From contig JASHNS010000092.1 of assembly GCA_030041515.1 (NCBI GenBank), forward strand, positions 62,001 through 126,000: a stretch of DNA of 64,000 bases, written 5' to 3'. Source of the DNA: Acidobacteriaceae bacterium. Lineage in GTDB: Bacteria; Acidobacteriota; Terriglobia; Terriglobales; Acidobacteriaceae. Positions 3,924 through 36,399 of the stretch are shown one piece after another. Each line of letters starts with the position of its first letter. The first letter of the stretch is position 1. Position numbers and translations under genes: made by a program. The notes below the pieces were generated by a model. That model was not told the origin of the DNA. It did no database searches and worked only from the letters and a program-made list of their open reading frames with translations.

Positions 3924-3935
3924 TGAAAGCATTCA
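3924..3935. promoter_or_regulatory. Putative LacI-family operator copy 1 (TGAAAGCATTCA)
   Basis: This 12-bp imperfect palindrome lies between the divergent SDR operon and the SMP-30 gene. It matches TGAA-W-SS-W-TTCA exactly. Its reverse complement, TGAATGCTTTCA, is identical to the copy upstream of the LacI gene at 27953. The position just downstream of a -10 suggests repression of the SMP-30 gene, possibly of both directions. Confidence 0.7.
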
Positions 3936-5810: not shown

Positions 5811-5828
5811 GAGTGCGAGGGGCTTTCG

Positions 5829-8317: not shown

Positions 8318-8484
8318 CGATTCCCTGGGCAACCGATAAACGCAATCAGCGGCTCAAGCCGTCCTGATTTTGCGCCGGTTACGGCACGACTGAAACTCGT
8401 GCGCTGATCCGAAGCCCCCGGTTTCGGAGAATTCTTCCGCAAGCTGCAAGTCCTGCCCTGATACAAGGTCCGGTTTTGGCGGAG

Positions 8485-13582: not shown

Positions 13583-13652
13583 CACCTGTCTCCTCGCAAA
13601 CAACGCAGCCGAAGCAGGGACTCTGGGGTCCGTGCTTCGCTGTCTGGGAAAT

Positions 13653-13664
13653 TGAAACCTTTTA
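13653..13664. promoter_or_regulatory. Degenerate LacI-type operator copy (TGAAACCTTTTA)
   Basis: This differs by one base from the copy at 15946 (TGAAACCTTTCA). It is the second, start-proximal site in the TonB receptor leader, centred 45 bp from the copy at 13698. That is about four helical turns, which would allow cooperative or looped binding. Confidence 0.5.
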
Positions 13665-13697
13665 AAAGCGAAGGACACGCCTTCCGCCTGTCTTTCT

Positions 13698-13709
13698 TTA
13701 AAGCTTTCA
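13698..13709. promoter_or_regulatory. LacI-type operator copy (TTAAAGCTTTCA)
   Basis: This differs by one base from the perfect palindrome TGAAAGCTTTCA at 28165. It lies 15 nt downstream of the -10 of the receptor promoter. The same spacing is seen at 3924 and 15946, so it probably marks the repressor-binding site for the receptor gene. Confidence 0.6.
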
Positions 13710-15945: not shown

Positions 15946-15957
15946 TGAAACCTTTCA
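15946..15957. promoter_or_regulatory. LacI-type operator copy (TGAAACCTTTCA)
   Basis: This is an exact match to the 12-bp TGAA-W-SS-W-TTCA pattern. It lies 15 nt downstream of the ribokinase -10, at the expected start of the transcript, so a bound repressor would block initiation or early elongation. Confidence 0.72.
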
Positions 15958-16039: not shown

Positions 16040-17110
16040 TCAGCACCCTCTTTCCCGAATCAGCTCTGCGACTCTGCTAAATGTTTCTACCTGATTCTGC
16101 GGGATGCGGCCCGTATTGTCCGGCGCCATGTTCATGAGCATATTTGCATTGCCCTTCATGCAGAGCCGATAGGCTTCCGCGATAACTTCCGGGCTTTGCG
16201 GCTTATACCACGGATGCCAGAACCAGGTGTGCATGGTGGGCATGGGCGGATAAATCGGGCCGGTGGGAAACCATGTCTCGAAGGGCATGTACCAGGACTT
16301 TTTGTCGTAGACCAGGTGGGGGTCGTGGCCTTCCAGCGGCGGCAGCGTGTCCTCGCCATTGACGACATCCGTGGGCCAGCTTGCCGATTCGCAAAAGCGG
16401 CCCTGATTAACGCGGCTCTGCCTGAATCCCTGGTTGTCCACCACCACGCAGTTGGGGCTCAACTGCTTCACCAGGCGATAGAGCTCCCAGCGCTGCTCCG
16501 GACTCAACTTCCACGTAATGTCGAAAAGCTGATAGAAAACGCCAGGATACATGGTGTGAAGCTGCGTAATGTGGCGCCTGATCAACTGAAAGTATTTGTC
16601 CGAGATGGGCGCATTCCAGTCAAATTTGCCCTCGTTGTGAGGGTCGAGAATGCAATAGTAGAAGCCGGGACGAACACCGAATTCGTGGCACGCCGCCACG
16701 AACGCCGCGACGACGTCGGTCTTGTTGCCGCTCTGCGCGACCGTGTAGTCGTAACCTTTCGACGGCCACAGGCAGAACCCCGACATATACTTCGCAGTGA
16801 GCACAGCATATTTTGCGCCTACTCCGTGCGCCACCTGAATCCATTGCCGGACGTCGAGATGAGTCGGGTCATAGACGGTCGCCGGCTTGTTGCCCACATC
16901 GTAATCGTCGCCGGTGAACGTTGGCGTGCTGAAGTGGAAAGAGCAGCCGAAACGCAGGCGCTGGTAGGTGGCCAGAAGCGGGGTCTGCTCGGTGGCGGGG
17001 CCAACGGATGCTTCGGAGTCCTGCGCGGCCAACAGGGGGCGGGCCACGGAGTTCACCACAGCTCCCGCCGCCGGAAGAGCCATCGATTTGAGCAAGTCTC
17101 GACGATTCAT
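16040..17110 (-). CDS. GH29-like (alpha-L-fucosidase family) exported glycosidase
   Basis: This 356-residue protein has an N-terminal NRRDLLK export leader and the fold landmarks of GH29: CSFHFSTPTF at 56-65, KYAVLTAKYMSGFCLWPS at 100-117, and Asp197 in YQLFDITW as the likely nucleophile. Canonical fucosidases carry HHDGF where this protein has YMSGF. Two fucose-binding histidines are therefore missing, and specificity may differ. The C-terminal NMLMNMAPDNTGRIP matches the family. It is divergent from the six-hairpin glycosidase gene, with a LacI-type palindrome between them. A GH29-type fold is secure; fucosidase activity is not. Confidence 0.75.
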   Translation of the reverse strand: MNRRDLLKSMALPAAGAVVNSVARPLLAAQDSEASVGPATEQTPLLATYQRLRFGCSFHFSTPTFTGDDYDVGNKPATVYDPTHLDVRQWIQVAHGVGAKYAVLTAKYMSGFCLWPSKGYDYTVAQSGNKTDVVAAFVAACHEFGVRPGFYYCILDPHNEGKFDWNAPISDKYFQLIRRHITQLHTMYPGVFYQLFDITWKLSPEQRWELYRLVKQLSPNCVVVDNQGFRQSRVNQGRFCESASWPTDVVNGEDTLPPLEGHDPHLVYDKKSWYMPFETWFPTGPIYPPMPTMHTWFWHPWYKPQSPEVIAEAYRLCMKGNANMLMNMAPDNTGRIPQNQVETFSRVAELIRERGC

Positions 17111-17158: not shown

Positions 17159-17200
17159 AGATTGCGTTACGATCATACCGAAACCACGTTGAGGTGTTCC

Positions 17201-19601: not shown

Positions 19602-20750
19602 TCAGATCTTCAGGAAGATCTTCTTCCGCCACAGCGGGTAGGTCAGCAGCCAGCAGACGGCGGCGAAGGCGATGGAGTAAAGGAGCGAACCGAGGCCCAC
19701 GGGCTGGATGGGCGCGAAGATGGGCATGTAGATCGCGGTCCAGAACATCTCCGTGTGGTGGTGCAGCGCCTGAATCCACAACGTGGAATTCAACAGCTCC
19801 GAAAGCATGTAGGCGAAGATGGCGTTCGTGCCGAAAACGATCCAGGGCTGCGTCCAGGCCCTGCGCCAGCCTTTGATGTCGATCATCCAGTAGAGGGCGC
19901 CGAGCAGCAGCGCTGAAGTCCCGGCAGAGAAGAGGACGTACGAACTGGTCCAGAGATTCTTGTTGAGGGGGAAGCTGAGGTTCCAGAGCTCGCCCGCGGC
20001 GATCAGGACCACGGCGGCGCCGAGAAGGCCGCCGGCGATTTGCTGGCGGGAACGCTGGGTTCGCATCCAGAGACCGGCGAGCACGCCGAGCAGGGTGGTA
20101 GCGATGGAGGGGAGATCGCTGAGGAGGCCCTCAGGATCGCGGTAGCCGACATAGAGGCGGCCGGGGAAGATGTGGCGATCGAGCCAGGCCGGCCAGTTCT
20201 GCCTCATGTCCATGAACGGGATGGTTTTGCCGGGGATGCCCGCGCCGGGAACGGGCACGTAGCGCAGGAGGATCCAGTAGCCGACGAGAAGCACGACGAT
20301 GGCGACGATCTTGCTGGTCGCGTCGCGGCGCCACAGATAGAAGAGCGCGACGCAGCAGTAACAGATGGCGATGCGCTGGAGGACGCCGTAGATGCGCAGC
20401 GTGGCCCAGGGGAAGTGCGGATAGCCGTTGACGATGAGGCCGAGACAGAAAAGGATGACGGTGCGGCGCAGGATGCTGACCACGATGCGGCCCTTTGGAA
20501 CTCCCCGCTCAAAGCGCTTGCCGAAGGCCAGCACGATCGATACGCCTACCAGAAAGAGAAAACACGGAAAAACGAGGTCCGTGGGCGTCCAGCCGTTCCA
20601 CACGGAGTGCGTAAAGGGATGCCAGGCGTGCGCGCCGTTGTTGTTCACCATGATCATGAACGCGATGGTGATGCCGCGCGCGATATCCACGGAGAGCACA
20701 CGGCCGGTGGTCGTAGACGCTGGTGCCGAATACGTTGTGCTGGCAGCCAT
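19602..20750 (-). CDS. NagX/HGSNAT-like (DUF5009) membrane acyltransferase
   Basis: This protein of about 380 residues has 9-10 membrane spans. Landmarks of the heparan-alpha-glucosaminide acetyltransferase-like family are RVLSVDIARGITIAFMIMVN near residue 20 and WNGWTPTDLVFPCFLFLVG near residue 53. The human homologue passes acetyl groups across a membrane onto amino sugars. Bacterial NagX-like proteins occur in GlcNAc or polysaccharide utilisation loci. The ATG at 20750 follows AAGGGA by six bases. It is last in a minus operon with GH13 and GH39-like genes. Confidence 0.85.
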   Translation of the reverse strand: MAASTTYSAPASTTTGRVLSVDIARGITIAFMIMVNNNGAHAWHPFTHSVWNGWTPTDLVFPCFLFLVGVSIVLAFGKRFERGVPKGRIVVSILRRTVILFCLGLIVNGYPHFPWATLRIYGVLQRIAICYCCVALFYLWRRDATSKIVAIVVLLVGYWILLRYVPVPGAGIPGKTIPFMDMRQNWPAWLDRHIFPGRLYVGYRDPEGLLSDLPSIATTLLGVLAGLWMRTQRSRQQIAGGLLGAAVVLIAAGELWNLSFPLNKNLWTSSYVLFSAGTSALLLGALYWMIDIKGWRRAWTQPWIVFGTNAIFAYMLSELLNSTLWIQALHHHTEMFWTAIYMPIFAPIQPVGLGSLLYSIAFAAVCWLLTYPLWRKKIFLKI

Positions 20751-20780
20751 CAATGGTCCCTTCTGCTGACTTCGCGGGGG

Positions 20781-22190
20781 TTATTGCTCCTGCGCTTTCA
20801 GCGGCGCAAGTGGAATTTGTTTTCCAACCACATAACCATAAGCCTTTAAATCGGCGGAGACGCGGCCGGAGTAGAGCGAAAACCAGGTCTTACCCGGATC
20901 CAGCAGGTTCTGGACCGCATAGTAATCCATCACAGGCAGGTTGACTGTGACGTGAACGTCGCGGTTCGACAAATTCAGGATCACCAGGACCCGGGTGTTG
21001 CCCTTTTGGCGGAGGAAGCTGAGTACGCTGTCTGGCTGCGTGTTGTCGATCCAGATCAGACTCCCGGAGGTGAGAGCCGGCTCGGAGGCCCGCATAGCGA
21101 AGAGGCGCTTGTACAAGGCTTCGGTGTCTTCGATCGACTTTTCGTCGGCGGGATTGGCGGGGTCGGACCAACGGATCGGCACCAGCTTGCGCCAGGGCGT
21201 GGCGTGCGGATCGTTCACTTCCTGGCCGTTGTAGATGAAGGGAATGCCGTCGAGGGTGAAGTCGAGCACCTGCGCCAGGCAGGCGCCCTTTTCACCTAAT
21301 TGCATCACGGCCCGTGGCCAGTCATGGTTATCGTCGTAGCGAATGAACCGAGCGCCCATGGGGAAGGTGGCGTGCATCTGCTCCCAGCTTTTCCGAATGT
21401 CGATCGCGGGCGCACCGTCACGCATCACCTTCATGAGCGCGAGATAGCCCTGGAAGTTGTAATTGATGTCAAAGGCCTGTAGCTGGTCGTCGGGGCGATC
21501 AGACTCGGAAAGCATGATGATCTGCGGATTCACCTTATCCAGAGCCTGGCGCGCCTCGACCCAGAAGGATTCGGGAACGCCGCCGCCCACGTCGCAGCGG
21601 AAGCCGTCGATGCCGAAGTCGCGCACCCAGTGGACAAGGCTGTCGATGAGATATTTGCGAACCTTCGGATTGTTATAATCCGGCAGCGGCTGCGGCCAGA
21701 ATCCGCGCGCGATCCTGCCGTCCGGCGTTTTCACGTAGAAGGAGGGGTCCTTCATCATCACGTTGTCGGGCGCGGTGTGGTAGTAGACGATGTCGAGCAT
21801 CACCTTCAGGTGCAGCTGGTGCGCGGCGGCGACAAAATCATGAAGGTCCTGCGCGGTGCCCACCTGCGGGTCGATCGCATTGTAGTCGGCGATGCTGTAC
21901 GGCGAGCCGTTGGGATTAGCGGTGCGCTTCGCGATGGGGCCGAGATACACAATGTTGGCGCCCAGATCGGCGATGTGCTTCAGCCCCGGAATCGCTCCAC
22001 GCAGATTGCCATCTTTGCTGAAGGCATTCACCCAGAGTTCGTAGATCGACGATTGATAGAGCCAGGGCGGAACGGTCCGCGCCGGACGCGAGCCGAACGA
22101 CAGATTCTGTGCAGGGACGGCAACGGTGCATCCGACGCTCAGCAGGAAGGTAACGATGGCACAGCGCCAAAATGGAAATCGGACAGGCAC
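20781..22190 (-). CDS. Exported GH13 alpha-amylase-family enzyme
   Basis: This 469-residue protein starts at a GTG with AAGGGAG seven bases upstream and has a signal peptide ending near VPAQN (residue 29). All GH13 regions are present: DIVYYH (133-138), the nucleophile Asp200 in GFRCD, the acid/base Glu229 in LSESD, and DDNHD (287-291). The family cleaves or transfers alpha-glucosidic bonds. The YYH in region I, instead of the usual NH, places it outside classical amylases; trehalose- or sucrose-acting subfamilies are possible. It lies 87 nt after the GH39-like gene and 30 nt before the acyltransferase, in one operon. Confidence 0.88.
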   Translation of the reverse strand: MPVRFPFWRCAIVTFLLSVGCTVAVPAQNLSFGSRPARTVPPWLYQSSIYELWVNAFSKDGNLRGAIPGLKHIADLGANIVYLGPIAKRTANPNGSPYSIADYNAIDPQVGTAQDLHDFVAAAHQLHLKVMLDIVYYHTAPDNVMMKDPSFYVKTPDGRIARGFWPQPLPDYNNPKVRKYLIDSLVHWVRDFGIDGFRCDVGGGVPESFWVEARQALDKVNPQIIMLSESDRPDDQLQAFDINYNFQGYLALMKVMRDGAPAIDIRKSWEQMHATFPMGARFIRYDDNHDWPRAVMQLGEKGACLAQVLDFTLDGIPFIYNGQEVNDPHATPWRKLVPIRWSDPANPADEKSIEDTEALYKRLFAMRASEPALTSGSLIWIDNTQPDSVLSFLRQKGNTRVLVILNLSNRDVHVTVNLPVMDYYAVQNLLDPGKTWFSLYSGRVSADLKAYGYVVGKQIPLAPLKAQEQ

Positions 22191-22277
22191 AATTTCGCTC
22201 CCTTGAGAGATACCTGGAGCCGGCACGGGCACGGCGAAAAGGCCAGGCCGCCGCGTCCGGCAGCCAGGCATATGGGA

Positions 22278-23825
22278 TTACTTCGACACTACGGCGACCG
22301 CGAATGGCGAGAGCGTGATGCTGCTGCCAGTCAGATTCTCCTGCCGCGGCGCGTCCTCGCCTGACTTCAGGTCGACTACTTGCCCATGCAGGCTGGAAGA
22401 GCTGAACGCACCGGACAGATTCACCGCAATGTCGTGATCCGTCGTGTTCACCAGCAGAATCTTTTTGCCCTTGCGGGTGATCGCAGCCTGCGCGCGAACA
22501 TCCAGGGTCGACGAGTTCGTTGCCGTGAGTTTGTCGCCGGGGCCGAAGTTGTGATTGATGAGCCACAGCGCCCAGTAGTGCGCATTCGGCTTCGCGGTCG
22601 TGTAGTCGAACATGGCGATCGAGGGGCACTGCGTCGGGTAGCCGACCATCTGGGACATGCTGATGAGGGGCAGGCCCAGATTCTCCGCGTTGATGAAGCT
22701 CACCGCCCAGTTCGCGCCGGTCGCGTTCCAATAGAGCGGGTTATAGGCCTGGTAGGGCTCGTTGGCGCGGCAGGATTCCTCGCCGGGCTTCACGATGTTA
22801 AAGGTGCCCATCTCATCCACGATCACTTTGGTTTGCGGCGAAAGCTGGTCGCGGATTTTCAACACCGTCTCAATGCGCTGTTGGAACGCGTCGGCGGAGG
22901 CGCCATTGTCGGGGCCCTTGTCGGGATCGGTGAAGTAATCGCCGTGCCAGGTGGAGGGATCGTTGGGGGCGTTCACATAATTATGGAAACTGAAGTACTC
23001 GAGCGGCAGCAGCGCGCCGGGGGCGTGATTCTTCGCGTCCAGGAAGTATTTCGCCCACGCGATCTCGGCGCCGGAAACTTCCGGAGCGAAGAACTGCACG
23101 TGCGGATCGATCTTGTGGATCGCCATGGTCACGGCATCGTAAATCTTCGTGTACTGCTGCACCGTGATGTGATTCTCAAAGTCCGGCTCGTTCAGCACGC
23201 CCCAGTAGTCGATCCTGTAGTGGTGCCCGGAGTGGTGGTAGTGGCCGAGCTCGTCGGTGAACCCGCCCTTCGTGTACCACTCGTACAGGCGCACCTGATA
23301 ATCCGCGAACTGCTTGCCGCTGGGATCTTTGAGGAGCGAACCCTCGGTACCGTCGGTGTAGTGGTAGAACGATGCGGCTGGATCCGTGGGGACGTCGACA
23401 GGCGCGACCCTGAACATCCAGCGCGGAATGCTCCCCATATTGATGTGGTGCCTGCCCGTCGTGTTCGCATAGTAGTCGGCCACGAGGGGGTCCATGTACT
23501 GGAAGTCCCAGAACGTCCGCGTCGCGGTGGGTGGCTTCAGTTCCGGAAGCGCGGCGCGCGTGACGGAGAACCAGAACTGCAGGCGCGTGTCGTTCGTATG
23601 CAGATTGCGCAGAGCCCGCATCAGCGGGTCGTGCAGCGGGCTGGAGCGCAGCGTAAACGCATGCGCGAGAATCTGCGTCGTCGGGACCGTGCCGGACACG
23701 CGCTCGACGTTCGTCCATTGCGCGCTCACATCCGCCGAGTTCCCGGCAGCCTGTGCCGCGGCGAGGATGGGGACAGCCACGAACGCCGCCAGAACCGCGA
23801 GAACAACATTTTTTCCTGCCTGCAT
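22278..23825 (-). CDS. Exported GH39/clan-A-like glycosidase
   Basis: This 515-residue protein has a signal peptide ending near AAAQA (residue 26). A TIM-barrel follows with the acid/base Glu213 in WGVLNEPDF and a probable nucleophile Glu338 in VIVDEMGTF, about 125 residues later as expected for clan GH-A. A C-terminal beta domain (residues about 430-515, ending LSPFAVAVVSK) resembles that of GH39/GH79 enzymes. Substrates in these families include beta-xylosides, iduronides and beta-glucuronides, and I cannot choose between them. The ATG at 23825 is the start that gives a normal signal peptide. A TTGACA lies at 23866-23871 on the minus strand, but I see no convincing -10 or operator. Confidence 0.78.
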   Translation of the reverse strand: MQAGKNVVLAVLAAFVAVPILAAAQAAGNSADVSAQWTNVERVSGTVPTTQILAHAFTLRSSPLHDPLMRALRNLHTNDTRLQFWFSVTRAALPELKPPTATRTFWDFQYMDPLVADYYANTTGRHHINMGSIPRWMFRVAPVDVPTDPAASFYHYTDGTEGSLLKDPSGKQFADYQVRLYEWYTKGGFTDELGHYHHSGHHYRIDYWGVLNEPDFENHITVQQYTKIYDAVTMAIHKIDPHVQFFAPEVSGAEIAWAKYFLDAKNHAPGALLPLEYFSFHNYVNAPNDPSTWHGDYFTDPDKGPDNGASADAFQQRIETVLKIRDQLSPQTKVIVDEMGTFNIVKPGEESCRANEPYQAYNPLYWNATGANWAVSFINAENLGLPLISMSQMVGYPTQCPSIAMFDYTTAKPNAHYWALWLINHNFGPGDKLTATNSSTLDVRAQAAITRKGKKILLVNTTDHDIAVNLSGAFSSSSLHGQVVDLKSGEDAPRQENLTGSSITLSPFAVAVVSK

Positions 23826-23957
23826 GGAAGCACCTGCTTTCTCCTGAAGACTCCGCGATCGCATTTGTCAAGGGTCTGCCCGGGAAACTGCGGCGGAACG
23901 ACGCAAGACCGGCCCGTCGCGCGATGAGCGCGAACCGTTCAGCTCACGTTCGTGCAA

Positions 23958-24392
23958 TCAGGAAGGAAAGACGACCCCTTTCTTGAGCAGAATGCAGCCG
24001 TATGGGCGCTGCTCGCCGGTAACGAGCACGGCGAACGCCTGGCGCGCGCGCTCGTAGAAGGCTTCGCGGGAGATGCCCTTCATCTCAACCGGCCGGCCCT
24101 CGGCCTTGTCGATGATCTTCTGGCAGGCCTTCTGAACCTCCGGAATCTCATCCGGCGCATGGACCTGCTGCATCCTGAATGCGGCGTCCTTCACAAAGGT
24201 ATCCAAAGGGAAGAGCTGAAGGCAGGCTTGCAGAGCGGTAGCGAGGTCGGAACCGTCGAGGCGCACAAGGCGCTGCGCGGTGGAGACGGCTGGAAAATTT
24301 GAATCTACGAGAGCGATCTCATCACCATGGCCCATGGAAGCAAGAATGTGCAAAAGCTCCGGCGTATGCAAAACGGAAAGGGTCTTCAACAT
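23958..24392 (-). CDS. fucU: L-fucose mutarotase (RbsD/FucU family)
   Basis: This 144-residue protein aligns by eye over its whole length with E. coli FucU: the MLKT start, MGHGDEIALVDSNFP at 20-34, EAFYERARQAFAVLVTGEQ and the C-terminal YGCILLKKGV. The family interconverts pyranose, furanose and anomers of fucose and ribose, so it supplies the form needed by kinases or isomerases. It lies between the LacI-controlled divergent promoter region and the GH39/GH13 operon on the same strand. With ribokinase and a GH29-like enzyme in the same regulon, either ribose or fucose could be its real substrate. Confidence 0.9.
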   Translation of the reverse strand: MLKTLSVLHTPELLHILASMGHGDEIALVDSNFPAVSTAQRLVRLDGSDLATALQACLQLFPLDTFVKDAAFRMQQVHAPDEIPEVQKACQKIIDKAEGRPVEMKGISREAFYERARQAFAVLVTGEQRPYGCILLKKGVVFPS

Positions 24393-24473: not shown

Positions 24474-24485
24474 TGAATGGTTTCA
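24474..24485. promoter_or_regulatory. LacI-type operator copy (TGAATGGTTTCA), fucU side
   Basis: This is an exact match to the 12-bp pattern. It lies 12 nt downstream of the minus-strand -10 at 24498 and about 80 nt upstream of the fucU start. Confidence 0.7.
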
Positions 24486-24617: not shown

Positions 24618-24629
24618 TGAATCGTTTCA
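24618..24629. promoter_or_regulatory. LacI-type operator copy (TGAATCGTTTCA), LamG side
   Basis: This is an exact match to the 12-bp pattern, 14 nt downstream of the -10. Together with the copy at 24474 it places both divergent genes under the same regulator. Confidence 0.7.
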
Positions 24630-24672: not shown

Positions 24673-26772
24673 ATGCAACGCGTGCTGATCGCGCTCTCTC
24701 TTGCCGCTCTGCTCATCTCCGTCGCCCAGGCTCAGAGCCAGCAAGTCGACGTGCGCTGGGATTTTGCGCAAAGCCAGGGCGCGGCGCCCGTCGACAGCCT
24801 TCAGGGTGTGAAGGCTTCCCTCGAGGGCGAGTACACGTACGTGTCCGGCATTTCCGGGCAAGGGATTCGCTTCGACGGTTACACCACCAGCATGACCGCC
24901 CCATGGCGCGACGCGGACCGTCAACTCCGCAACGGGTTCACCGTGCAGGCCTGGGTCGCGCTGAACACCTACCCATGGAACAGAGTTCCGATCGTTGATC
25001 AGGAGCAGGACGATCAGCAGGGCTTCTTTTTCGGACTCGACGCGTTCGGGCATCTCGCCTTCGACATTTCCATCGACGGCCAGTGGCAAACCCTCACGTC
25101 CACGGCGACGCTGCCGCTGAAGCGGTGGGCACAGATCACAGGAACATATCGCGCGACGGGTGAGGAGGGTGAGTTATCCATCTTCATCGACGGCAAGCCG
25201 GCCGGGCAACTGGCCGTTCACGGCCACATGCTTCCTGCGCAGACCGATCTCCTGATCGGCCGCGTACGCCAGGCCATGCTTCCCTTCCCGGACGCCGCGG
25301 CGAAACCGCAGTACCCCATCTGGTACTCGCTGGATGGCATCCTGTCGGACATTGGACTCACTCGCGAAGTTCGCAGCGCCGCCGAAATCGCCAGCACCTA
25401 TGCCGCCGCGCACGCTCCCCCTGCGGATGTGCTGCCATGGCCGAAGCTCCCGGAAGGACCGGCGGGACCGGGACGCTTTGGCGCCTATTACGCGACGCTG
25501 AAGTACCAGGACACGTGGGATCGCCTGCGCCGCATGGGCCCGGATTCCGACGTCGTCGTCCGCTTCGACGAGTCGCCGATCCGCCTCGTCTTTTGGCAGG
25601 GCACTAACTACGAGCCCGCGTGGGTAACCGAAAACGACAAGTGGTACACCGACGAATTCGTGGAGACGTGGGACAAGGGCTGCCCCGCCGGTGGCGACTG
25701 TGAGCCGATGTCAGACAAGCAGAGCCGCTACTCGCGCGTGAACATCATCGAGAGCAATCCAGCGCGGGTCGTGGTGCACTGGCGTTATGCCGATGCCGAG
25801 GTGGAGCAGTTGCTGGGCGCGTGGCCCAATCCGCGCACCGGATGGTTCCAGTGGATTGACGAGTACTGGACCGTGTATCCCGACGGCGTCGCAATCCGGG
25901 AGCAGATGCTGCACGCGACCGACACCAGCCGGCCCCACGAGTGGCAGGAGACGATCGTGCTGCATCAGCCGGGCGCGCGGCCCGAAGACGACATCCATTT
26001 CGACGCAATCACGCTCGAAAATATGCAGGGGCAGACGAAGACCTACACGTGGCGCCCAAAGCCCTACGGTCTGCTGCACACACCCTATGGACCGCCGGGA
26101 GGCATCACCGGGCCGCCTGACCCGAACATTCAGCTCGTGAACATGAAATCGCAGTGGAAGCCATTCCAGATTCACACGCCGGAAGGCGCGAGCGCCGACA
26201 TATATAACAACGAGCTCACTTACTTCTCCTTCCTCTGCTGGAATCACTGGCCGGTGGCGCAGATTGCCTCCAGCGACCGGCCCTGCGTCGCGGCCGATCG
26301 CGCCTCGCACAGCTCGCTCTCGCACCTTTACTGGAAGCCGTATTTCCAGAACCAGCACACTGAGATCAAGCTGCTGATGGACGGATTGACAACAAAGACG
26401 CCGGCCGAATTATTGCCGCTGGCGAAATCGTGGCTGTCGCCGCCGGCACTCCGCGTCGATGGCTCGGGATATCAGAGCAACGGCTACGATGTCACCCAGC
26501 GTGACTACGTTGTTACGCGCACTGATCCGGCCGCGGCTCTGCAAATCACGCTGGAGGCCAGCTCCGGGTCCCCTCTGGTCAATCCGGCGATCCTCGTCAG
26601 GAACTGGGGCGAGAGCAACGCGACGCTGCGAGTCAACGGCCGGGCGGTGGCGTGGGGCAAAGAGGATCGAGTGGGACATATCGAGCATCTGGACCGGACG
26701 GATCTGATCATCTGGATCCAGGCGCAGTTCACGCAGCCCTGCCAAGTCGAAGTAGACTCGTCTCCACAGTGA
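24673..26772 (+). CDS. Exported LamG/concanavalin-like domain protein of unknown function
   Basis: This 699-residue protein has a signal peptide ending near AQAQS (residue 20). A LamG/ConA-like beta-sandwich spans about residues 22-235 (GFTVQAWVALNTYPW..., ITGTYRATGEEGELSIFIDGK). The remaining 450 residues belong to no family I can name with certainty. They are rich in aromatic and acidic residues (WQGTNYEPAWVTENDKWY, CEPMSDKQSRYSRVNIIES, WFQWIDEYWTVYPDGV, HEWQETIVLHQPG), as carbohydrate-active proteins often are. Its own promoter and operator tie it to the sugar regulon. A new glycan-degrading or glycan-binding enzyme family is a reasonable guess, nothing more. Confidence 0.7.
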   Translation: MQRVLIALSLAALLISVAQAQSQQVDVRWDFAQSQGAAPVDSLQGVKASLEGEYTYVSGISGQGIRFDGYTTSMTAPWRDADRQLRNGFTVQAWVALNTYPWNRVPIVDQEQDDQQGFFFGLDAFGHLAFDISIDGQWQTLTSTATLPLKRWAQITGTYRATGEEGELSIFIDGKPAGQLAVHGHMLPAQTDLLIGRVRQAMLPFPDAAAKPQYPIWYSLDGILSDIGLTREVRSAAEIASTYAAAHAPPADVLPWPKLPEGPAGPGRFGAYYATLKYQDTWDRLRRMGPDSDVVVRFDESPIRLVFWQGTNYEPAWVTENDKWYTDEFVETWDKGCPAGGDCEPMSDKQSRYSRVNIIESNPARVVVHWRYADAEVEQLLGAWPNPRTGWFQWIDEYWTVYPDGVAIREQMLHATDTSRPHEWQETIVLHQPGARPEDDIHFDAITLENMQGQTKTYTWRPKPYGLLHTPYGPPGGITGPPDPNIQLVNMKSQWKPFQIHTPEGASADIYNNELTYFSFLCWNHWPVAQIASSDRPCVAADRASHSSLSHLYWKPYFQNQHTEIKLLMDGLTTKTPAELLPLAKSWLSPPALRVDGSGYQSNGYDVTQRDYVVTRTDPAAALQITLEASSGSPLVNPAILVRNWGESNATLRVNGRAVAWGKEDRVGHIEHLDRTDLIIWIQAQFTQPCQVEVDSSPQ

Positions 26773-26790: not shown

Positions 26791-27855
26791 TCAGGAGGCC
26801 ACGCTGCGCGATTTACGGTGGCGGATCGGCGGACTCGCACTCATGTCCGCAGGCGGAGCTGCCACCGAATCGCGAATTCTCAGCTCGGTTTTCAGCACGA
26901 TATGCTTCACGGGAGCATCCTTGTGCGCCACGCGGTCGAGCGCTAGCTGTGCGGCCGCGGCGCCGAGCTGGTAAGGCGACTGATAGACCGACGATAACTG
27001 CGGCGTGGTGGTCTCCGTCAAATCCAGGCCGTCAAAGCCAACCAGAGAGATATCGTCCGGGCAGTGCAGCTTCTCTTCGCGGATGGCCATGAGCGCGCCA
27101 AGCGCGATCAGGTCGTTGCAGGCCAGAATGGCCGTCGGGCGGGGCACCATCTTCAGCAGCACCTTGGTCTTCGCGTAACCGCCGGCGCGATCGAAGGTAG
27201 CTTCCTGCATATAACCAGGAGCCAGTTCGAGGTCCGCCTGCCTGAGCGCGCGCTTGAAACCCTTCAGCCGGTCCTGCGAGTTTGTGAGGTGCAGCGGCCC
27301 GGTGATGACGGCTAAGTGGCGATGGCCGAGCCCAATCAGGTAAGACGCGGCATTGGACGCGCCATCCGTGTTGTTGATGGTGACGCTGTCCCCGTTCCAG
27401 TTGCGCGGGAGACGGTCGATGCAGACCACCGCGGCGCCCGCGCGCCGATAGGATTCCGTCTGCGCGGTGAGATCGCTGAAGTCCGAAGGAATGACAATCA
27501 GGCCGGAAGGCAAATACGTCCGCAGAGCATTCAAATGCATGACTTCCTTGCCGTGATCATTATCGGTATTACACAGAACGAGGCGATATCCATTGGCAAA
27601 GGCAACGTCTTCAGCGCCACGCACGACACCCGGGAAGAAAGGATTCAGGATATCCGGGATAATCATCGCGAGTATGTTGGTCTTATCCCGGCGCAGCCCG
27701 CGGGCCAGCTGGCTGGGTTGGTAGCCGGTGACGCGCACCGCCTCCAGAACCCGCTTGCGCAGCGGCTCGCGCACTCTCGCCGTGCCATTCAGCACGTGGG
27801 AGACAGTCCCCAGAGAGACCCCGGCCAGCTCAGCGATTTTCTTCATGTTGGCCAT
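26791..27855 (-). CDS. LacI-family transcriptional regulator
   Basis: This 354-residue protein has the LacI helix-turn-helix at residues 4-23 (MKKIAELAGVSLGTVSHVLNG). The hinge helix YQPSQLARGLR is followed by a periplasmic-binding-protein-like effector domain (NILAMIIPDILNPFF..., AILACNDLIALGALMAIREE, DISLVGFDG). The effector is unknown. The frame is open upstream to 27987, but the ATG at 27855 fits the family start. It also leaves the palindrome at 27953 in the promoter, where it would give autoregulation. The local abundance of LacI-type palindromes makes this the most likely regulator of the region. Confidence 0.93.
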   Translation of the reverse strand: MANMKKIAELAGVSLGTVSHVLNGTARVREPLRKRVLEAVRVTGYQPSQLARGLRRDKTNILAMIIPDILNPFFPGVVRGAEDVAFANGYRLVLCNTDNDHGKEVMHLNALRTYLPSGLIVIPSDFSDLTAQTESYRRAGAAVVCIDRLPRNWNGDSVTINNTDGASNAASYLIGLGHRHLAVITGPLHLTNSQDRLKGFKRALRQADLELAPGYMQEATFDRAGGYAKTKVLLKMVPRPTAILACNDLIALGALMAIREEKLHCPDDISLVGFDGLDLTETTTPQLSSVYQSPYQLGAAAAQLALDRVAHKDAPVKHIVLKTELRIRDSVAAPPADMSASPPIRHRKSRSVAS

Positions 27856-27952: not shown

Positions 27953-27964
27953 TGAATGCTTTCA
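27953..27964. promoter_or_regulatory. LacI-type operator copy upstream of the lacI-like gene (TGAATGCTTTCA)
   Basis: This is an exact match to the 12-bp pattern, about 100 nt upstream of the regulator start. It suggests autorepression. Confidence 0.68.
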
Positions 27965-28118: not shown

Positions 28119-28148
28119 TTGACAGCGCTTTGGTGCGAATACTAGACT
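28119..28148 (+). promoter_or_regulatory. Promoter of the epimerase-permease-rpiB-ROK-GH127 operon
   Basis: Perfect TTGACA (28119-28124), an 18-nt spacer and TAGACT (28143-28148). The operator begins 16 nt downstream. Confidence 0.65.
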
Positions 28149-28164: not shown

Positions 28165-28176
28165 TGAAAGCTTTCA
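28165..28176. promoter_or_regulatory. Perfect LacI-type operator (TGAAAGCTTTCA)
   Basis: This is the only fully symmetrical copy of the palindrome. It sits 16 nt after the -10 of the five-gene operon, where bound repressor would block transcription. Confidence 0.75.
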
Positions 28177-28257: not shown

Positions 28258-28947
28258 ATGCCTAAGCCGATCAGGATCGAAGCTTCGGTCGCCTGCGCTA
28301 ATTTCGCCGCGCTCGAATCCGACCTTCGGCAGCTCAGCTCCGGTGGCGTCGACTACCTGCATATCGACATTATGGACGGCAGATTCGTGAACAATTTCTG
28401 CCTCGACTTCTCCATCATGGAGACGATCCGCGGCATCTGCGACATCCCCATGGATTGCCACCTCATGATCGAGGAGCCCGAGCGGTATATCGGGCGCGCC
28501 GTGGCAGCCGGCGCCGAGTGGCTCACCATCCATATCGAGGCGACCCGACACGCGCAGCGCGGGCTGCAGCAAATCCGGGAGGCCGGAGCGCGGCCCGGCA
28601 TCGCGCTCAATCCCGCCACGCCGCCGGAATCCCTCCACTACATCCTCGACGATATCGAGATGGTAACGGTGATGACCGTGAATCCGGGCGCCGTCGGCCA
28701 ACGCCTGATTCCCGCCACGGTGAAAAAGATCGGCGACGTGCGGCGCCTGCTCGATGATTCCGGGCACGAGAACGTGGAGATCCAGGTGGATGGCAACGTC
28801 AGCTTCGCCAACATTCCGGCTATGATCGCCGAGGGCGCCACGATGCTGGTCGGCGGTACGTCCAGCATCTTTCACAAAGACTATTCCATCCCCGACGCCA
28901 TCAACGCAGTTCGAAAACTCGTGGAAACTCCGGGACGGGCTCAATGA
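28258..28947 (+). CDS. Ribulose-phosphate 3-epimerase family (Rpe / AlsE-like)
   Basis: This 229-residue TIM-barrel epimerase starts at the ATG at 28258, where the family sequence begins (MPKPIRIEAS). Metal and catalytic residues are visible: His35 and Asp37 in HIDIMDG, His68 in DCHLM, and Asp178 in IQVDGN. The usual NPGFGGQ loop reads NPGAVGQ here. The HIDIMDGRF form recalls AlsE (allulose-6-phosphate 3-epimerase) as much as housekeeping Rpe. It heads an operon with RpiB and a ROK kinase, the same three activities as the E. coli allose pathway. Either C5 or C6 keto-sugar phosphates could be substrates. Its stop overlaps the permease start (ATGA). Confidence 0.85.
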   Translation: MPKPIRIEASVACANFAALESDLRQLSSGGVDYLHIDIMDGRFVNNFCLDFSIMETIRGICDIPMDCHLMIEEPERYIGRAVAAGAEWLTIHIEATRHAQRGLQQIREAGARPGIALNPATPPESLHYILDDIEMVTVMTVNPGAVGQRLIPATVKKIGDVRRLLDDSGHENVEIQVDGNVSFANIPAMIAEGATMLVGGTSSIFHKDYSIPDAINAVRKLVETPGRAQ

Positions 28948-29951
28948 TCACAGTTCACTCCTATCCACTTGCCGTCGCGCTGTGTGTGCTGACGATGTTC
29001 TGCTGGGGTTCCTGGGCGAACACGCTGAAGATGGAGCCCCGCTCGTACGCCTTCTCCCTCTTCTACTGGGACCAGGGCGTCGGATACCTGCTGCTGCCGC
29101 TGATTCTTGGCCTCACTTTCGGCAGCTTCGGATCCACAGGTCGCAGCCTCTTCGCCGATCTGCATCAGGCGAGCGCCGCAACCTACGGCTGGGCGCTGAC
29201 TGGCGGCGTGGTGTTCAACCTGGCCAACATCCTCTTCATGGCCGCGCTGGATCTTGCCGGCATGGCCGTTGCGTATCCGATCGCCATTGGCCTTGCCCTG
29301 GTCGAGGGCGTTGTCATCAATTACATCGCCGATCCGCACGGTTCGCCTCTGCTCATCTTCGTTGGCGTTGCCTGCATTACGCTGGCCATTGTGCTCGACG
29401 CGCTCGCCTATCGCAACGCGCAGGGCAGCACCAGCGAACCGAGCAGGCTGCGGCTGGGCATCTCGCTGGCTTTGGCCGGCGGCATTCTGATGGGACTGTT
29501 TTACTTCCTGGTGGAGCGGTCGATCTCGCTCGACTTCAGTCATCTGACGCCAGGCAAATTCGGGCCCTACGCAGCGGTCCTGATCTATTCGCTGGGGTCG
29601 TTCGTTTCGAATTTCGTCTTCAATCGCTACCTGATGAGCCACCCCATCCAGGGGCCGAAGGTGACCTACTCGGATTACTTCAGGGCGGATTTCAAGTATC
29701 ACGCCATCGGCGCGCTGGGCGGGATCATCAACGGCATCGGCGTCACATCCAACTTCGTTGCTTCCAGAGCGGCAAGCCCCGCGATCGCTTACGGTCTGGG
29801 GCAATGCGGCACGATGATTGCCGCCATCTGGGGCGTCTTTGTCTGGAAGGAAATCAAAGGGGCTTCGAAAGGGACGAATGCGCTGGTCTTCTTCATGTTC
29901 GTATTCTTCCTGGCCGGCCTCAGTCTGCTGGTCACCTCCATGCTGCGCTGA
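28944..29951 (+). CDS. GRP-family (ribose/glucose porter-like) sugar permease
   Basis: This 335-residue protein has ten predicted membrane spans beginning MITVHSYPLAVALCVLTMFCWGSWANTLK, a start typical of GRP-type permeases. Other landmarks are LALVEGVVINYIADP and SFVSNFVFNRYLM. It probably imports the sugar that the downstream kinase and isomerase use. It differs strongly from the other GRP permease at 5897-7207. Translation is coupled to the epimerase by a 4-base overlap. The substrate is inferred as ribose or allose from context only. Confidence 0.82.
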   Translation: MITVHSYPLAVALCVLTMFCWGSWANTLKMEPRSYAFSLFYWDQGVGYLLLPLILGLTFGSFGSTGRSLFADLHQASAATYGWALTGGVVFNLANILFMAALDLAGMAVAYPIAIGLALVEGVVINYIADPHGSPLLIFVGVACITLAIVLDALAYRNAQGSTSEPSRLRLGISLALAGGILMGLFYFLVERSISLDFSHLTPGKFGPYAAVLIYSLGSFVSNFVFNRYLMSHPIQGPKVTYSDYFRADFKYHAIGALGGIINGIGVTSNFVASRAASPAIAYGLGQCGTMIAAIWGVFVWKEIKGASKGTNALVFFMFVFFLAGLSLLVTSMLR

Positions 29952-29971
29952 CGCGCTGAACTCGTGAAAAG

Positions 29972-30454
29972 ATGGCGGTACCCATGATTGCAATCGGTTC
30001 AGATCACGCGGCGTTTGCGTTCAAGGAAGACATCAGAGCCTGGCTGGTGGAGAAGGGCTACCAGGTCCGCGACTTCGGCGCCTGCGGCACCGAGCGCGTG
30101 GACTACTGCGACTTCGGTTTTCGCGTGGGCGAGGCTGTGGCGCGCGGCGAGTGCGAAAAAGGGTTGGTGTTCTGCGGCACGGGCGTTGGCATTTCCATCA
30201 GTGCCAACAAGGTCAAGGGGGTTCGCGCAGTCGTGTGCAGCGAGCCGTACTCCGCGAAGCTGTCGCGCGAGCACAACGACACCAACATTCTGGCTCTGGG
30301 TGCGCGCGTCGTAGGACCCGAGCTGGCGCGTATGATCGTTGAGATCTGGCTGACCACCGAGTTCGAAGGCGGCCGTCATCTCGACCGGATCAAAAAGATC
30401 GCCGCCTACGAAGAGGGCCGCCTGGATCCCAGGCCTCTCGGGGAGACCCGATGA
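29972..30454 (+). CDS. rpiB: Ribose 5-phosphate / allose 6-phosphate isomerase B
   Basis: This 160-residue protein has the complete RpiB/LacAB pattern: GSDHAAF (9-15), catalytic Cys68 in VFCGTGVGISISANK, and SREHNDTN at 98-105 with His101. It isomerises ribose 5-phosphate and ribulose 5-phosphate; in E. coli it also acts on allose 6-phosphate. An ATG four codons downstream is an alternative start. The last codons overlap the ROK kinase start by 4 bases. Its place between permease and kinase supports a dedicated catabolic role rather than housekeeping. Confidence 0.92.
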   Translation: MAVPMIAIGSDHAAFAFKEDIRAWLVEKGYQVRDFGACGTERVDYCDFGFRVGEAVARGECEKGLVFCGTGVGISISANKVKGVRAVVCSEPYSAKLSREHNDTNILALGARVVGPELARMIVEIWLTTEFEGGRHLDRIKKIAAYEEGRLDPRPLGETR

Positions 30455-31431
30455 CCGCTCTGCATCTCGGGGTCGACATCGGGGGCACGAACATCAAGTT
30501 CGGCGTTGTCGATGAAGCCGGCACAATTCTGCTGCGGAGGAGAACAGAAACTGGCGCGCAGCGCGGCAGCGGGGCCATCGTCTCCTCCATCGTGCAGGAG
30601 ATCGAATCTGTGCTGAAGGATCCCCTGTTGCAGAACCGGAAGCTCGAGAGCATCGGCCTCGGCGTTCCCGGCACCGCCGATTCCGTCCGCGGCGTGGTCG
30701 TCTATGCACCCAATCTTTTCTGGCGTAACGTCGAATTGGCCGCGGCCCTTCAGCCGGTCTTCCAGACGCCCGTCTTTGTCGCGCAGGATACCCGTGCCGC
30801 GGCATGGGCGGAATATCTGGTTGGCGAGGGTCGCGGATTACGCGGTCTCGCCGCCGTCACGCTGGGCACGGGGATTGGCTGCGGCCTTGTTCTGGACGGC
30901 AAGATCTTTCACGGCGCGCTGAACACGGCTGGAGAATTCGGCCATCAGATCGTCGCCATCGGGGGCGAGGCCTGCAATTGCGGGCGGTGTGGCTGCCTGG
31001 AAGCACATGCGGGCGGCCTGGCGATCGTGCGCGAGGCAAAGAAACGGATCGCAGCGCTGGACGCCCTCCTCGACAGAGATTCGTCCAACGTTACAGTGGC
31101 CGACGTCTACCGTCTCGCGGAGCAGAATCATCCGCAGGCTCGCGAGCTCACCGAAAGCGTCGTGCGCTTCATTGGCATTGGCCTGGTGAATCTGATTAAC
31201 CTGACGAGCGTGGAAATGATCTGCCTGAGCGGTGGCATCAGCAATGCGCCGCGCGCGCTGCTGCTGGATCCGCTGGTGGAGTTCGTGCGGACCCGGGCCT
31301 ACGAAGCGGCGTCGAACAGTGTGCGCATCTGCCGCTCCATGCTGGGCGAAGATGCTCCGATGATCGGGGCTGCGCTGCTCTGCCACGGGATCTCCGGCCC
31401 GGCACAACCCCGGACAACGCGCGTGAACTGA
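30451..31431 (+). CDS. ROK-family sugar kinase (AlsK-like candidate)
   Basis: This 326-residue kinase has the ATP motif DIGGTNIKFG (9-18), the catalytic Asp113 in QDTRAAA, GEFGHQ (161-166) and the zinc cluster CNCGRCGCLE (175-184). ROK kinases phosphorylate hexoses such as glucose, N-acetylmannosamine and allose. No DNA-binding domain is present, so it is a kinase and not a ROK repressor. With RpiB and the epimerase next to it, an allose to allose-6-P to allulose-6-P to fructose-6-P route can be proposed. The evidence for allose is context only. Confidence 0.85.
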   Translation: MTALHLGVDIGGTNIKFGVVDEAGTILLRRRTETGAQRGSGAIVSSIVQEIESVLKDPLLQNRKLESIGLGVPGTADSVRGVVVYAPNLFWRNVELAAALQPVFQTPVFVAQDTRAAAWAEYLVGEGRGLRGLAAVTLGTGIGCGLVLDGKIFHGALNTAGEFGHQIVAIGGEACNCGRCGCLEAHAGGLAIVREAKKRIAALDALLDRDSSNVTVADVYRLAEQNHPQARELTESVVRFIGIGLVNLINLTSVEMICLSGGISNAPRALLLDPLVEFVRTRAYEAASNSVRICRSMLGEDAPMIGAALLCHGISGPAQPRTTRVN

Positions 31432-31446
31432 ACAGGGAGAGCATTG

Positions 31447-33534
31447 ATGGATTCAAGGGACTTGGGCACCGGCCTCAACCGCCGCGATTTTGTGCGTTTG
31501 GCGATGATGGGTTCCGCGCTGATGATGGGTCCTGGCGCGCTGGCGGCCGAGACAGAATCCGCGGAGCAGCCGGTGCCGTATCACGGTGCTCTGCGCGCAT
31601 TGCCGCCCGGGACCGTGAAGCCGGAGGGTTGGCTGCGCGGCTACCTGCAGAAGCAGGCCGAGCAACTCGGCAGCAATCTGCCCAGGGTTTCCTGGCCCTT
31701 TACCCGGGATTTCTGGGGCGACCAGCTTCAGGGCGATTACTGGCTCAGGGATCAGCAGTGGGAAGAGTGGTGGCCATGGGAGCAGCGCGCCTACTGGATT
31801 GACGGCGCCACGCGGCTTGGCATTCTGCTCGGCGACGAGAATCTGCTGGCTGCGACCACGGCGCCGATGATCTACACGCTTACCCACGCGGACAAGGAAG
31901 GCTACCTCGGTCCGCAGCTCTTTCAGGATCCGCTCGCCGATTATCATCGCTGGCCGCACGTTGTCTTCTTCCGCAGCCTGGCCGCGGTGTCCGGCTCGCA
32001 CACGCCGCTGAAGGGGATCACGCACACCCAGATCGCCCAGGAAATGCAGCGCCACTACCTCAATGACGACGCATCCTACGGCAAGCCGAAGCGGAATATC
32101 AACAACGTCGAAGACATGCTGTGGTGCTACGAGCAGACGCGCAATCCTCAACTGCTCGCCCTCGCCGAGAAAGCCTGGAAGGAATTCATGCAGACCAACG
32201 ACACTGAGGTCGATCTGGGTCTGCTCCGCGTGATGAGCAACTCGCCCATCAACGCCCACGGCGAATCCTACGCCGAGACATCCAAGCAGCCGGCGATCCT
32301 GTACATGTATACGGGCAAGCAGGATTATCTGACGTTCGGCCTGGCCGCGCAGCGCCGCATCTTCGACTACCACATGCTCATCGACGGGATTCCGTCGACC
32401 TCAGAGTGGTTTTCGACAACGACCTCGCTCGATTCGCACGAAACCTGCGACATCGTGGACCACACGTGGTCGTGGGGCTATTATCTGATGGCCACCGGCG
32501 ACAGCCGGTGGGCCGACCACGTCGAGCGCGCCTGCTTCAACGCCGCCCCGGGCGCGATCCGTAATGACTGGAAGGGCGTGCAATACTTCTCCTGCCCGAA
32601 TCAGTTCCTGGCCACGCTTGACTCCGACCACAACTGGCCTCTCTTTCCGGAACACGGCGGTTACTTCATGGCGTACCAGCCCAACCCGGGACATCGCACC
32701 GCCTGCTGCGGCGGCAACGTGCATCGCGTGGTGCCAAACTACGTCATCCGCATGTGGATGAAGCGCAGCGACGGCGGCCTGGCCGCGGTGCTCTACGGGC
32801 CCTGTACGGTGAAAGCCACCGTCGGCCCGCACAACCAGCCCATTGAAATCGTCCAGTCCACGCGCTACCCGTTCGAAGAAGAAATTCGGCTGACGATCAA
32901 ATCCGGCGCGCCGGTGGAGTTTCCTCTGTCTCTGCGCATCCCCGGCTGGTGCCGGGAGCCACGCCTGACGCTGAACGGCAAGTCTATGGACGCGCGACCT
33001 GATGCTCACGGATTTGTCACTGTGGAGCGTACATTTCAGTCCGGCGACCAGATCGCTCTCACTTTTCCCATGCGTCTGGCCCTCTCGCGCTGGCCGCAGA
33101 ATGGCATCGGGCTTGAGCGGGGACCCCTGGTTTATTCTCTGCCCATCCGCGCCCGGTGGACGACCACCGTCGTCCCGCGGTACTCCACCCCGGAGTTTCC
33201 CTGCTTTGAAGCCCGTCCGCAGAGCGAGTGGAATTACGGTCTCGCTCTGCAAGAGGCCACGCTGGACGAGGACGTACAGGTCATCCAGCGACCCATCGCA
33301 CCGGATCAGGCATTCGATCCATGGGAGAATCCTCCAGTCGCGCTGACCGTCCCGGCCAGAAAGGTCGCGGGCTGGGAACTCATGGCGAATCCGGATAAGC
33401 CCGAGCAGAAATTCACCCCATGTCTGCCCGATGTGCAACCCGATCAGGTGAGCGAAGCGAAGGAGCGCATCCGGCTCGAGCCCTACGGCTCGACAAAACT
33501 GCGTCTGACGATCTTTCCCGAAGTGAAGTCGTAA
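31447..33534 (+). CDS. Exported GH127-family (DUF1680-type) glycosidase
   Basis: This 695-residue protein has an NRRDFVRLAMMGSALMMG export leader of Tat-like appearance. The GH127 zinc/catalytic residues align well: Glu332 and Cys334 in SHETCDIV, and the Cys420-Cys421 pair in TACCGGN. In characterised GH127 enzymes the second Cys of that pair is the nucleophile and the substrates are beta-L-arabinofuranosides. The ATG at 31447 has GGAG seven bases upstream. It is the last gene of the LacI-controlled operon, 15 nt after the ROK kinase. Its real glycoside may therefore be one that releases the sugar metabolised by that operon. Confidence 0.88.
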   Translation: MDSRDLGTGLNRRDFVRLAMMGSALMMGPGALAAETESAEQPVPYHGALRALPPGTVKPEGWLRGYLQKQAEQLGSNLPRVSWPFTRDFWGDQLQGDYWLRDQQWEEWWPWEQRAYWIDGATRLGILLGDENLLAATTAPMIYTLTHADKEGYLGPQLFQDPLADYHRWPHVVFFRSLAAVSGSHTPLKGITHTQIAQEMQRHYLNDDASYGKPKRNINNVEDMLWCYEQTRNPQLLALAEKAWKEFMQTNDTEVDLGLLRVMSNSPINAHGESYAETSKQPAILYMYTGKQDYLTFGLAAQRRIFDYHMLIDGIPSTSEWFSTTTSLDSHETCDIVDHTWSWGYYLMATGDSRWADHVERACFNAAPGAIRNDWKGVQYFSCPNQFLATLDSDHNWPLFPEHGGYFMAYQPNPGHRTACCGGNVHRVVPNYVIRMWMKRSDGGLAAVLYGPCTVKATVGPHNQPIEIVQSTRYPFEEEIRLTIKSGAPVEFPLSLRIPGWCREPRLTLNGKSMDARPDAHGFVTVERTFQSGDQIALTFPMRLALSRWPQNGIGLERGPLVYSLPIRARWTTTVVPRYSTPEFPCFEARPQSEWNYGLALQEATLDEDVQVIQRPIAPDQAFDPWENPPVALTVPARKVAGWELMANPDKPEQKFTPCLPDVQPDQVSEAKERIRLEPYGSTKLRLTIFPEVKS

Positions 33535-34950: not shown

Positions 34951-34974
34951 CTCTGGAATTCCTTCCTGAGCAAA

Positions 34975-36342: not shown

Positions 36343-36399
36343 GGTGGCCCTGCTTTCTGGCTTATCTGCCCGCCGCCTCGAGCGGCGCTTCATCCACAG

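Follow-up and report, generated by a model that had tools for sequence, protein, structure and literature searches.

We analyzed a 64,000-nucleotide stretch from an Acidobacteriaceae bacterium (contig JASHNS010000092.1, positions 62,001 to 126,000 of the forward strand; hereafter, the window), in which the original prediction had placed a compact rare-sugar operon at positions 28258 to 33534. The operon consists of five open reading frames (ORFs) on the + strand, and the predicted coordinates were correct. The first encodes a ribulose-5-phosphate/allulose-6-phosphate 3-epimerase family protein with AlsE-type active-site motifs (28258..28947; PF00834, 213.4 bits against a curated cut-off of 21.1), followed by a GRP/DMT-type sugar permease (28944..29951; PF07168, 75.7 against 27, and PF06800, 32.5 against 26.3), an RpiB of the E. 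coli type (29972..30454; PF02502, 191.7 against 24.7), a ROK sugar kinase (30451..31431; PF00480, 222.5 against 22.9) and a GH127-like enzyme (31444..33534, starting at a TTG, with an ATG at 31447). The epimerase and permease genes overlap by 4 bases at 28944, the RpiB and ROK genes overlap by 4 bases at 30451, and 20 bases separate the permease gene from the RpiB gene, confirming both the compactness and the families that had been proposed. A gene for a LacI-family, RbsR-like regulator (26791..27855, - strand; Pfam, NCBIfam and alignment) lies before the operon and is divergent to it; its start was corrected by alignment to MANMKKIAELAG. The functional unit looks larger than the operon span first reported.

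A putative operon promoter (28119..28148, + strand) was read by eye from an alignment of three species, with TTGACA at 28119-28124 and TAGACT at 28143-28148. It is followed by the perfect palindrome TGAAAGCTTTCA at 28165..28176. The TTGACA element, a CTAGACT stretch and the palindrome are kept in the window and in loci of two other species (L111 and L112) despite diverged upstream regions. A search with the degenerate palindrome TGAAWSSWTTCA recovered six sites in the window, compared to 0.05 expected in shuffles, and nine in the whole genome (4.77 Mb in 123 contigs), compared to one for the reversed control pattern. Across 360 permuted half-site palindromes the mean was 0.05, and only the real one reached six. 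All six window sites are located 29-97 bp upstream of predicted starts, those of the SDR and lacI genes being corrected starts. Besides the operon, the sites precede lacI (operator-like TGAATGCTTTCA, 27953..27964), a LamG-domain gene (TGAATCGTTTCA, 24618..24629), an RbsD-like operon (TGAATGGTTTCA, 24474..24485), the ribokinase and nucleoside hydrolase genes (TGAAACCTTTCA, 15946..15957) and an SDR/lactonase pair (operator-like TGAAAGCATTCA, 3924..3935, between the SDR gene on the - strand and the SMP-30 lactonase gene on the + strand). L111 and L112 retain the LamG and RbsD-like sites as they do that of the operon, and the ribokinase site has a matching place in G001 (L229:5932), a genome that matches L111. 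An additional operator-like TTAAAGCTTTCA with one mismatch (13698..13709) lies upstream of a TonB-dependent receptor gene, where G001 has the perfect TGAAAGCTTTCA (L229:8149); G001 has an operator also between its SixH and GH29-type genes. The site at 27953 may point to autoregulation of lacI.

The genes behind these sites include a ribokinase of the PfkB family (14851..15852, - strand) that scores 325.5 bits on TIGR02152, over the cut-off of 299.65, and a nucleoside hydrolase family protein whose N-terminus looks signal-like by eye (13919..14854, - strand; profile scan). The receptor gene (9923..13678, - strand) encodes an outer-membrane protein of the TonB-dependent type, with CarboxypepD_reg and OMP barrel domains by Pfam. 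The RbsD/FucU-family mutarotase (23958..24392, - strand; profile scan) is nearer to FucU, and the LamG-domain protein (24673..26772, + strand; Pfam) is in the cluster in three species. The best NCBIfam model for the LacI protein is RbsR, barely ahead of PurR (231.4 versus 228.6 bits).

The permease was characterized from its ORF, its Pfam matches and the neighborhoods of its relatives; it has no match to the RbsU model of NCBIfam. Its eight best relatives outside the genus, from a draw of genomes of the class, are 50-55% identical and belong to other families. In seven of them, a PfkB gene is adjacent and the stretch read includes a nucleoside-hydrolase (IunH) homologue; a contig end cuts the eighth. 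Among the first 20 permease loci (L090-L109), PfkB was found in ten and IunH in nine, and a LacI homologue was present in L104 only (39.9%). After two loci (L088 and L089) showed a LacI at 66%, we hand-picked 15 further permease loci, all from the family of the window and each read over 18 kb. LacI at 58-68% was found in ten of the 15 (L242-L246 and L252-L256); all ten also hold the permease, a PfkB gene and the operator, and nine have a TonB-receptor match. Judged by identity, these regulators are likely orthologues of the window LacI. The 15 loci come from 14 genomes, of which several belong to one genus, and L243 is nearly a copy of L242; since several of the genomes are close kin, the ten loci with the operator do not count as independent cases. 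The operator occurs at 21 sites over the 15 loci, with at most 0.04 in shuffles of each. L249 has a LacI at 46% and two operator sites, and of the four loci that have no LacI, three have no site and L247 has one. A PfkB gene is present in 14 of the 15 loci, and each of the four PfkB proteins scanned (L242, L246, L253 and L254) passes the ribokinase cut-off; L254 additionally encodes an RbsD-like protein and one of the adenosine-deaminase family. In contrast to the window, the 15 loci gave no match at E <= 1e-10 for the epimerase, RpiB, ROK or GH127. Because a related LacI and the same operator are found at permease/PfkB loci, the regulator is, as judged from sequence, RbsR-type in its wiring. 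In L242, L246, L249, L252, L253, L254 and L256, a further gene, about 720-780 codons long, lies close to that for PfkB or LacI, and the five copies scanned (L242, L246, L249, L253 and L254) have an FGE-sulfatase C-terminal domain.

The arrangement of the operon is not due to chance, since the block is syntenic in L111 and L112. In L111, the genes from the HGSNAT-type gene to the GH127-like gene are syntenic at 83-93% identity, continuing to the GH10, GPH and GH3 genes, and in L112 synteny at 62-86% starts at the GH13 gene and stops where the contig ends, within the ROK gene. Contig C81 of G009 gives the same gene table as L112, and the two are seemingly one genome. On another contig of G009, a GH127-like gene (72%) starts at the edge, followed by enolase and phosphoglycerate mutase-like genes (by eye), and it is likely that this gene adjoins ROK. 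In another genome (G003), a GH127-like gene (59%) was found with no operon in the 20 kb read. Across 61 genomes, the window's own included, RpiB at 79% or more was present in three of 12 genomes of the genus (G000, G001 and G009); the 49 others had none, their best matches being at 50-51%. At E <= 1e-55, a threshold chosen to leave out ordinary Rpe, the epimerase was found in one of 299 class genomes, which was its own; G001 and G009 were not among the matches of that draw. In the best 80 of 200 loci, from named genomes, identity to the epimerase exceeded 43% only in L111 (86%), L112 (69%) and L113 (66%).

The original prediction compared the enzymes with those of E. coli allose catabolism, and for the epimerase the comparison held for the motifs but not for the AlsE clade. 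The protein scores 173.7 bits on the AlsE model NF007266, short of the cut-off of 271; it falls narrowly below the rpe equivalog cut-off (208.7 versus 212.6) and lies above the rpe subfamily model NF004076 (182.1 versus 165). A tree was made from 29 of 31 rows, leaving out Shinella (a wrong-frame ORF by its letters) and the long-branch Sinorhizobium B11. It split 14 Rpe-type rows from the 15 others at 100/98, and the four acidobacterial epimerases branched outside both the Rpe-type rows and the six AlsE rows. The epimerase is not placed firmly with housekeeping Rpe by this split, though an approximately unbiased (AU) test did not reject a branch that places the epimerase and Rpe together on one side (p 0.358). 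The same test disfavored a single clade of the epimerase and AlsE (p 0.029). Both groups were defined once a first tree had been seen. The AlsE-type motifs are S-x-[MAV]-C (with T in the Niallia AlsE as the exception), [AV]GQ in place of GGQ (AEQ in L113), VDGN/S in place of VDGG, and G[TS]S[SG]xF with a one-residue insertion. They may be ancestral, because they are common to PfkB-linked epimerases of Priestia and Enterococcus. A plasmid-borne als operon of Chloroflexota has the same trio of epimerase, kinase and RpiB, with a LacI gene upstream. Among other plasmid-borne relatives, those in L191 and L195 adjoin ribokinase genes, the one in L193 is in a CO2-fixation operon and the one in L194 is in a housekeeping setting; L192 (2085-2762), from an E. 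coli resistance plasmid, is a gene for an AlsE/Rpe-like epimerase near an IS26 element and an EamA-type transporter gene. The L113 relative adjoins SIS, ROK, Gfo/Idh/MocA and amino-acid-permease genes. The full L113 row (445-9675) encodes an SIS isomerase, an arylformamidase-like protein, a PDH-type E1 alpha, ROK, Gfo/Idh/MocA, an amino-acid permease and the AlsE-like epimerase, with E1 beta and lipoyl E2 also present by eye, and is possibly an unusual, Amadori-type pathway.

The RpiB is 58% identical to E. coli RpiB/AlsI and 42% identical to the other RpiB of the genome (contig C109), and its score on TIGR01120 (193.5) is above the plain rpiB equivalog cut-off of 138.65. By its sequence, we class it as the E. 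coli dual-function type. The title of a reference cited in PMC3212906 states that the E. coli enzyme isomerises allose 6-phosphate and that the M. tuberculosis enzyme does not. The genome has no RpiA match. Besides the second RpiB, it does have another Rpe (contig C55; 37% identity to the operon epimerase), so the operon epimerase and RpiB are extra copies. Near the RpiB relatives (45-51%) of 11 other genomes, of which 7-16 kb was read, we found no epimerase, permease or ROK match. The kinase, one of nine ROK-family matches in the genome, had been called AlsK-like, and this assignment was not upheld: it scores 119.8 on the AlsK model NF007251 against a cut-off of 253, and it forms a branch separate from AlsK. 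The ROK tree left out two wrong-strand ROK ORFs and the partial ROK of L112, and the rows of four relatives were BLAST-aligned segments with gaps removed; no specificity could be drawn from it. Among PDB sequences, the closest matches are glucokinases. The residue before the catalytic Asp is Q, compared to R or K in all three AlsK rows and N in five other ROK rows; in the five paralogues read of the eight others in the genome it is N (three), S and G. We take this residue as a soft hint of specificity. The ROK kinase suggests a hexose.

The assignment of the last gene to GH127 stands at the domain level, with both Pfam domains over their cut-offs (PF20736, 79.6 against 24.2 bits; PF07944, 50.1 against 24.9). 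The protein is remote from the family, because the PF07944 match is partial, spanning only profile positions 171-373 of 376. The matches are limited to about residues 211-572, solved GH127-type sequences match only residues 328 to 572, and the sole NCBIfam match is to aceric acid hydrolase, at 91.9 bits against a cut-off of 950. Counted from the TTG at 31444, residues E321, E333, C335, C421 and C422 are aligned in the window protein and 12 relatives (15 rows, with one wrong-strand ORF row not counted). The available excerpt of PMC10728902 gives the zinc-cysteine catalytic residues of HypBA1 as E322, E338, C340, C417 and C418. The letters of HypBA1 are not among the aligned rows; matched by motif, E321, E333-x-C335 and C421-C422 appear to stand at the expected catalytic positions. 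The N-terminus, NRRDFVRLA, is twin-arginine-like by eye, and the enzyme is predicted to be exported. As originally proposed, it may have a new specificity. At nine loci (L049-L057) with GH127-like relatives of 24-33%, no other gene of the operon was found. An AlphaFold model of the protein, from two rows, was unusable (mean predicted local distance difference test, pLDDT, 31.6).

We give about an even chance to the proposal that the operon serves an enlarged RbsR-type (ribose) regulon as its arm for uptake and sugar phosphates, with ribose as the core sugar. Ribose is favored because of the control wiring, the permease and the neighbors. The original prediction had offered a ribose route as an alternative, and it became the better supported frame: the regulator and operator are those of a ribokinase/permease circuit, and the nearest relatives of the permease outside the genus lie beside ribokinase-family and nucleoside-hydrolase-family genes. 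In this proposal, the LacI-family repressor would bind the palindrome just downstream of the operon -10 element and at the other promoters of the cluster, and a D-ribose-containing compound, a nucleoside or glycoside, would release it. An exported nucleoside hydrolase, the GH127-like enzyme and other glycosidases would free monosaccharides. The GRP permease would import D-ribose, the PfkB ribokinase would convert it to ribose 5-phosphate, and RpiB and the epimerase would carry this to ribulose 5-phosphate and xylulose 5-phosphate. A second sugar from this material, most likely a hexose, would be phosphorylated by the ROK kinase. Were it D-allose, the same RpiB and epimerase could run from allose 6-phosphate over allulose 6-phosphate to fructose 6-phosphate.

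Several observations weigh against this proposal. The LacI protein misses the RbsR equivalog cut-offs (231.4 versus 531 on NF007743; 227.9 versus 382 on NF047341), and the RbsD-like protein passes neither the FucU cut-off (112.6 versus 141) nor that of RbsD (46.2 versus 93). The operator is absent from all 20 permease loci L090-L109, which include the nearest relatives of the permease, and the window nucleoside hydrolase is 23-33% identical to the homologues at permease loci, except for 50.6% in L102. The lacI site at 27953 matches the pattern in neither L111 nor L112; in the window, the SixH and GH29-type genes have no matching site between them, and one L111 site (2696) falls within the GH13 frame. 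Three of the nine genome sites are located elsewhere, two of them inside coding frames (a TonB-receptor frame and the COX1 gene) and the third about 850 bp ahead of another TonB-receptor frame, in a stretch that has no ORFs of 200 codons. The genome count is also partly circular, since the consensus was derived from the window; conservation in the other species is not. Ribose alone does not need the operon copies of Rpe and RpiB, because a second Rpe and a second RpiB exist. The epimerase, with its AlsE-type motifs, also branches outside the Rpe clade. The ROK kinase is unexplained by ribose, the cluster already having a ribokinase. The third outside site (L228:4474, contig C119) has a TTGACA element nearby and may mark an additional member of the regulon or belong to a paralogous LacI.

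A possible, clearly less probable explanation is that a D-allose (or alloside) catabolic operon was taken into the ribose regulon. ROK would then produce allose 6-phosphate, RpiB allulose 6-phosphate and the epimerase fructose 6-phosphate, with D-allose carried by the permease of the ribose-type group. A D-ribo hexose such as allose is favored because of the enzyme types: the kinase-isomerase-epimerase trio for such a hexose is complete and recurs in the Chloroflexota als operon, RpiB is close to E. coli RpiB/AlsI, the epimerase combines AlsE-type motifs with a position outside the Rpe clade, its L113 relative is in a hexose-amine-like context, and the Q before the ROK catalytic Asp weakly agrees. 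Against this, the AlsE and AlsK cut-offs are both missed, the AU test disfavors the grouping with AlsE and leaves that with Rpe unrejected, the motifs may be ancestral, and ROK lies apart from AlsK and closest to glucokinases. The regulator and operator belong to ribokinase loci, and no source of allose is evident. The ribose and allose explanations can both hold, because D-allose is the six-carbon analogue of D-ribose; the available text of a study on Listeria allose genes describes ribose as an allose analogue and reports that proteins of the ribose pathway can serve allose (PMC5893763).

We consider it unlikely that the trio acts on another 3-epimeric hexulose or hexosamine phosphate, such as allulose or Amadori-type psicosamine compounds. 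The one-strand row of SIS isomerase, ROK, Gfo/Idh/MocA, APC-type permease and epimerase in L113 would fit such a pathway, but the window operon showed neither an SIS nor an APC-type gene, and the L113 SIS and permease match FrlB and FrlA only weakly (27.1 of 430 and 36.1 of 800 bits). That redundant pentose-phosphate copies (Rpe and RpiB) and a glucokinase-like ROK were swept into the cluster with no specific sugar seems very unlikely. The proximity of ROK to glucokinases, the RpiB score above the rpiB equivalog cut-off and the epimerase score above NF004076 are in line with it; however, the gene order is kept in three species at 62-93% identity, as are operators, and the sequence types are unlike the other Rpe and RpiB of the genome.

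Compared to known systems, the ribose proposal draws on the rbsUDK-rbsR genes of Lactobacillus sakei, which the available part of PMC3146418 describes as a ribose set of permease, RbsD, ribokinase and repressor. The window likewise has a LacI-family repressor, a ribose-type permease, an RbsD-family mutarotase and a ribokinase under what would be one control. Unlike the L. sakei set, its genes are spread over several units with a TonB receptor, a nucleoside hydrolase and several glycosidase-family genes; RpiB, the AlsE-type epimerase, ROK and the GH127-like enzyme are added, and the permease is not of the RbsU model. The E. coli als operon (alsRBACEK with rpiB) shares a ROK kinase, RpiB and an Rpe-family epimerase with the window. 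It differs in that the GRP permease replaces AlsBAC and LacI replaces AlsR, a protein of the RpiR family, and in that AlsE and AlsK have no orthologue in the window by cut-off or tree. The GH127-like enzyme resembles the GH127/GH146 beta-L-arabinofuranosidases (HypBA1 and BT0349) and aceric acid hydrolase in its domains and candidate zinc-cysteine residues, and differs from them in its remoteness and in being encoded among genes for sugar-phosphate enzymes. In the open-access papers searched, where a lack of reports is not proof of absence, we found no publication on an RbsR regulon for ribose in Acidobacteria or on allose together with GH127, and, judged by titles and the starts of abstracts, nothing to the point on allose operons in Acidobacteria.

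Elsewhere in the cluster, Pfam identified an Alpha_L_fucos (GH29-type) protein (16040..17110, - strand) and a GH39-like protein (22278..23864, - strand) at 24.5 bits, under the cut-off of 26. Profile scans identified an HGSNAT_cat/NagX-like membrane protein (19602..20753, - strand) and a GH13 alpha-amylase-family protein (20781..22271, - strand). The protein at 17204..19546 (+ strand; scanned as 17180-19546) has no Pfam match and a partial match to TIGR01577 (oligosaccharide amylase; 56.2 of 820.7 bits). The last 500 or so residues of the LamG protein match no Pfam family and no PDB sequence, and the protein is conserved at 64-83% in the cluster; its AlphaFold model, from three rows, was unusable (mean pLDDT 39.3). 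At 1281-8128, we observed genes for a myo-inositol oxygenase, a second GRP-type permease, a PfkB kinase, an SMP-30 lactonase, an SDR and a CoA-transferase-family protein; the operator-like site at 3924 falls inside this cluster, between SDR and lactonase. Adjacent GH10 xylanase, GPH symporter and GH3 beta-xylosidase-like genes at 33823-38904 (- strand) are seemingly a separate xylan unit.

The locus offers a concrete, testable regulon of one repressor, one operator and about six predicted promoters in soil bacteria. It is also a clean case in which annotation enzyme by enzyme leads to allose and the control circuit leads to ribose. It is doubtful, though conceivable, that the GH127-type zinc-cysteine enzyme removes a D-ribo-configured sugar (a D-ribofuranoside or D-allose), which would make this a combined ribose/allose harvesting locus coupled through the RbsR-type operator. 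If the enzyme does act on a ribose or allose glycoside, it would give zinc-cysteine glycosidases a new substrate and put a name to a natural source of a rare sugar.

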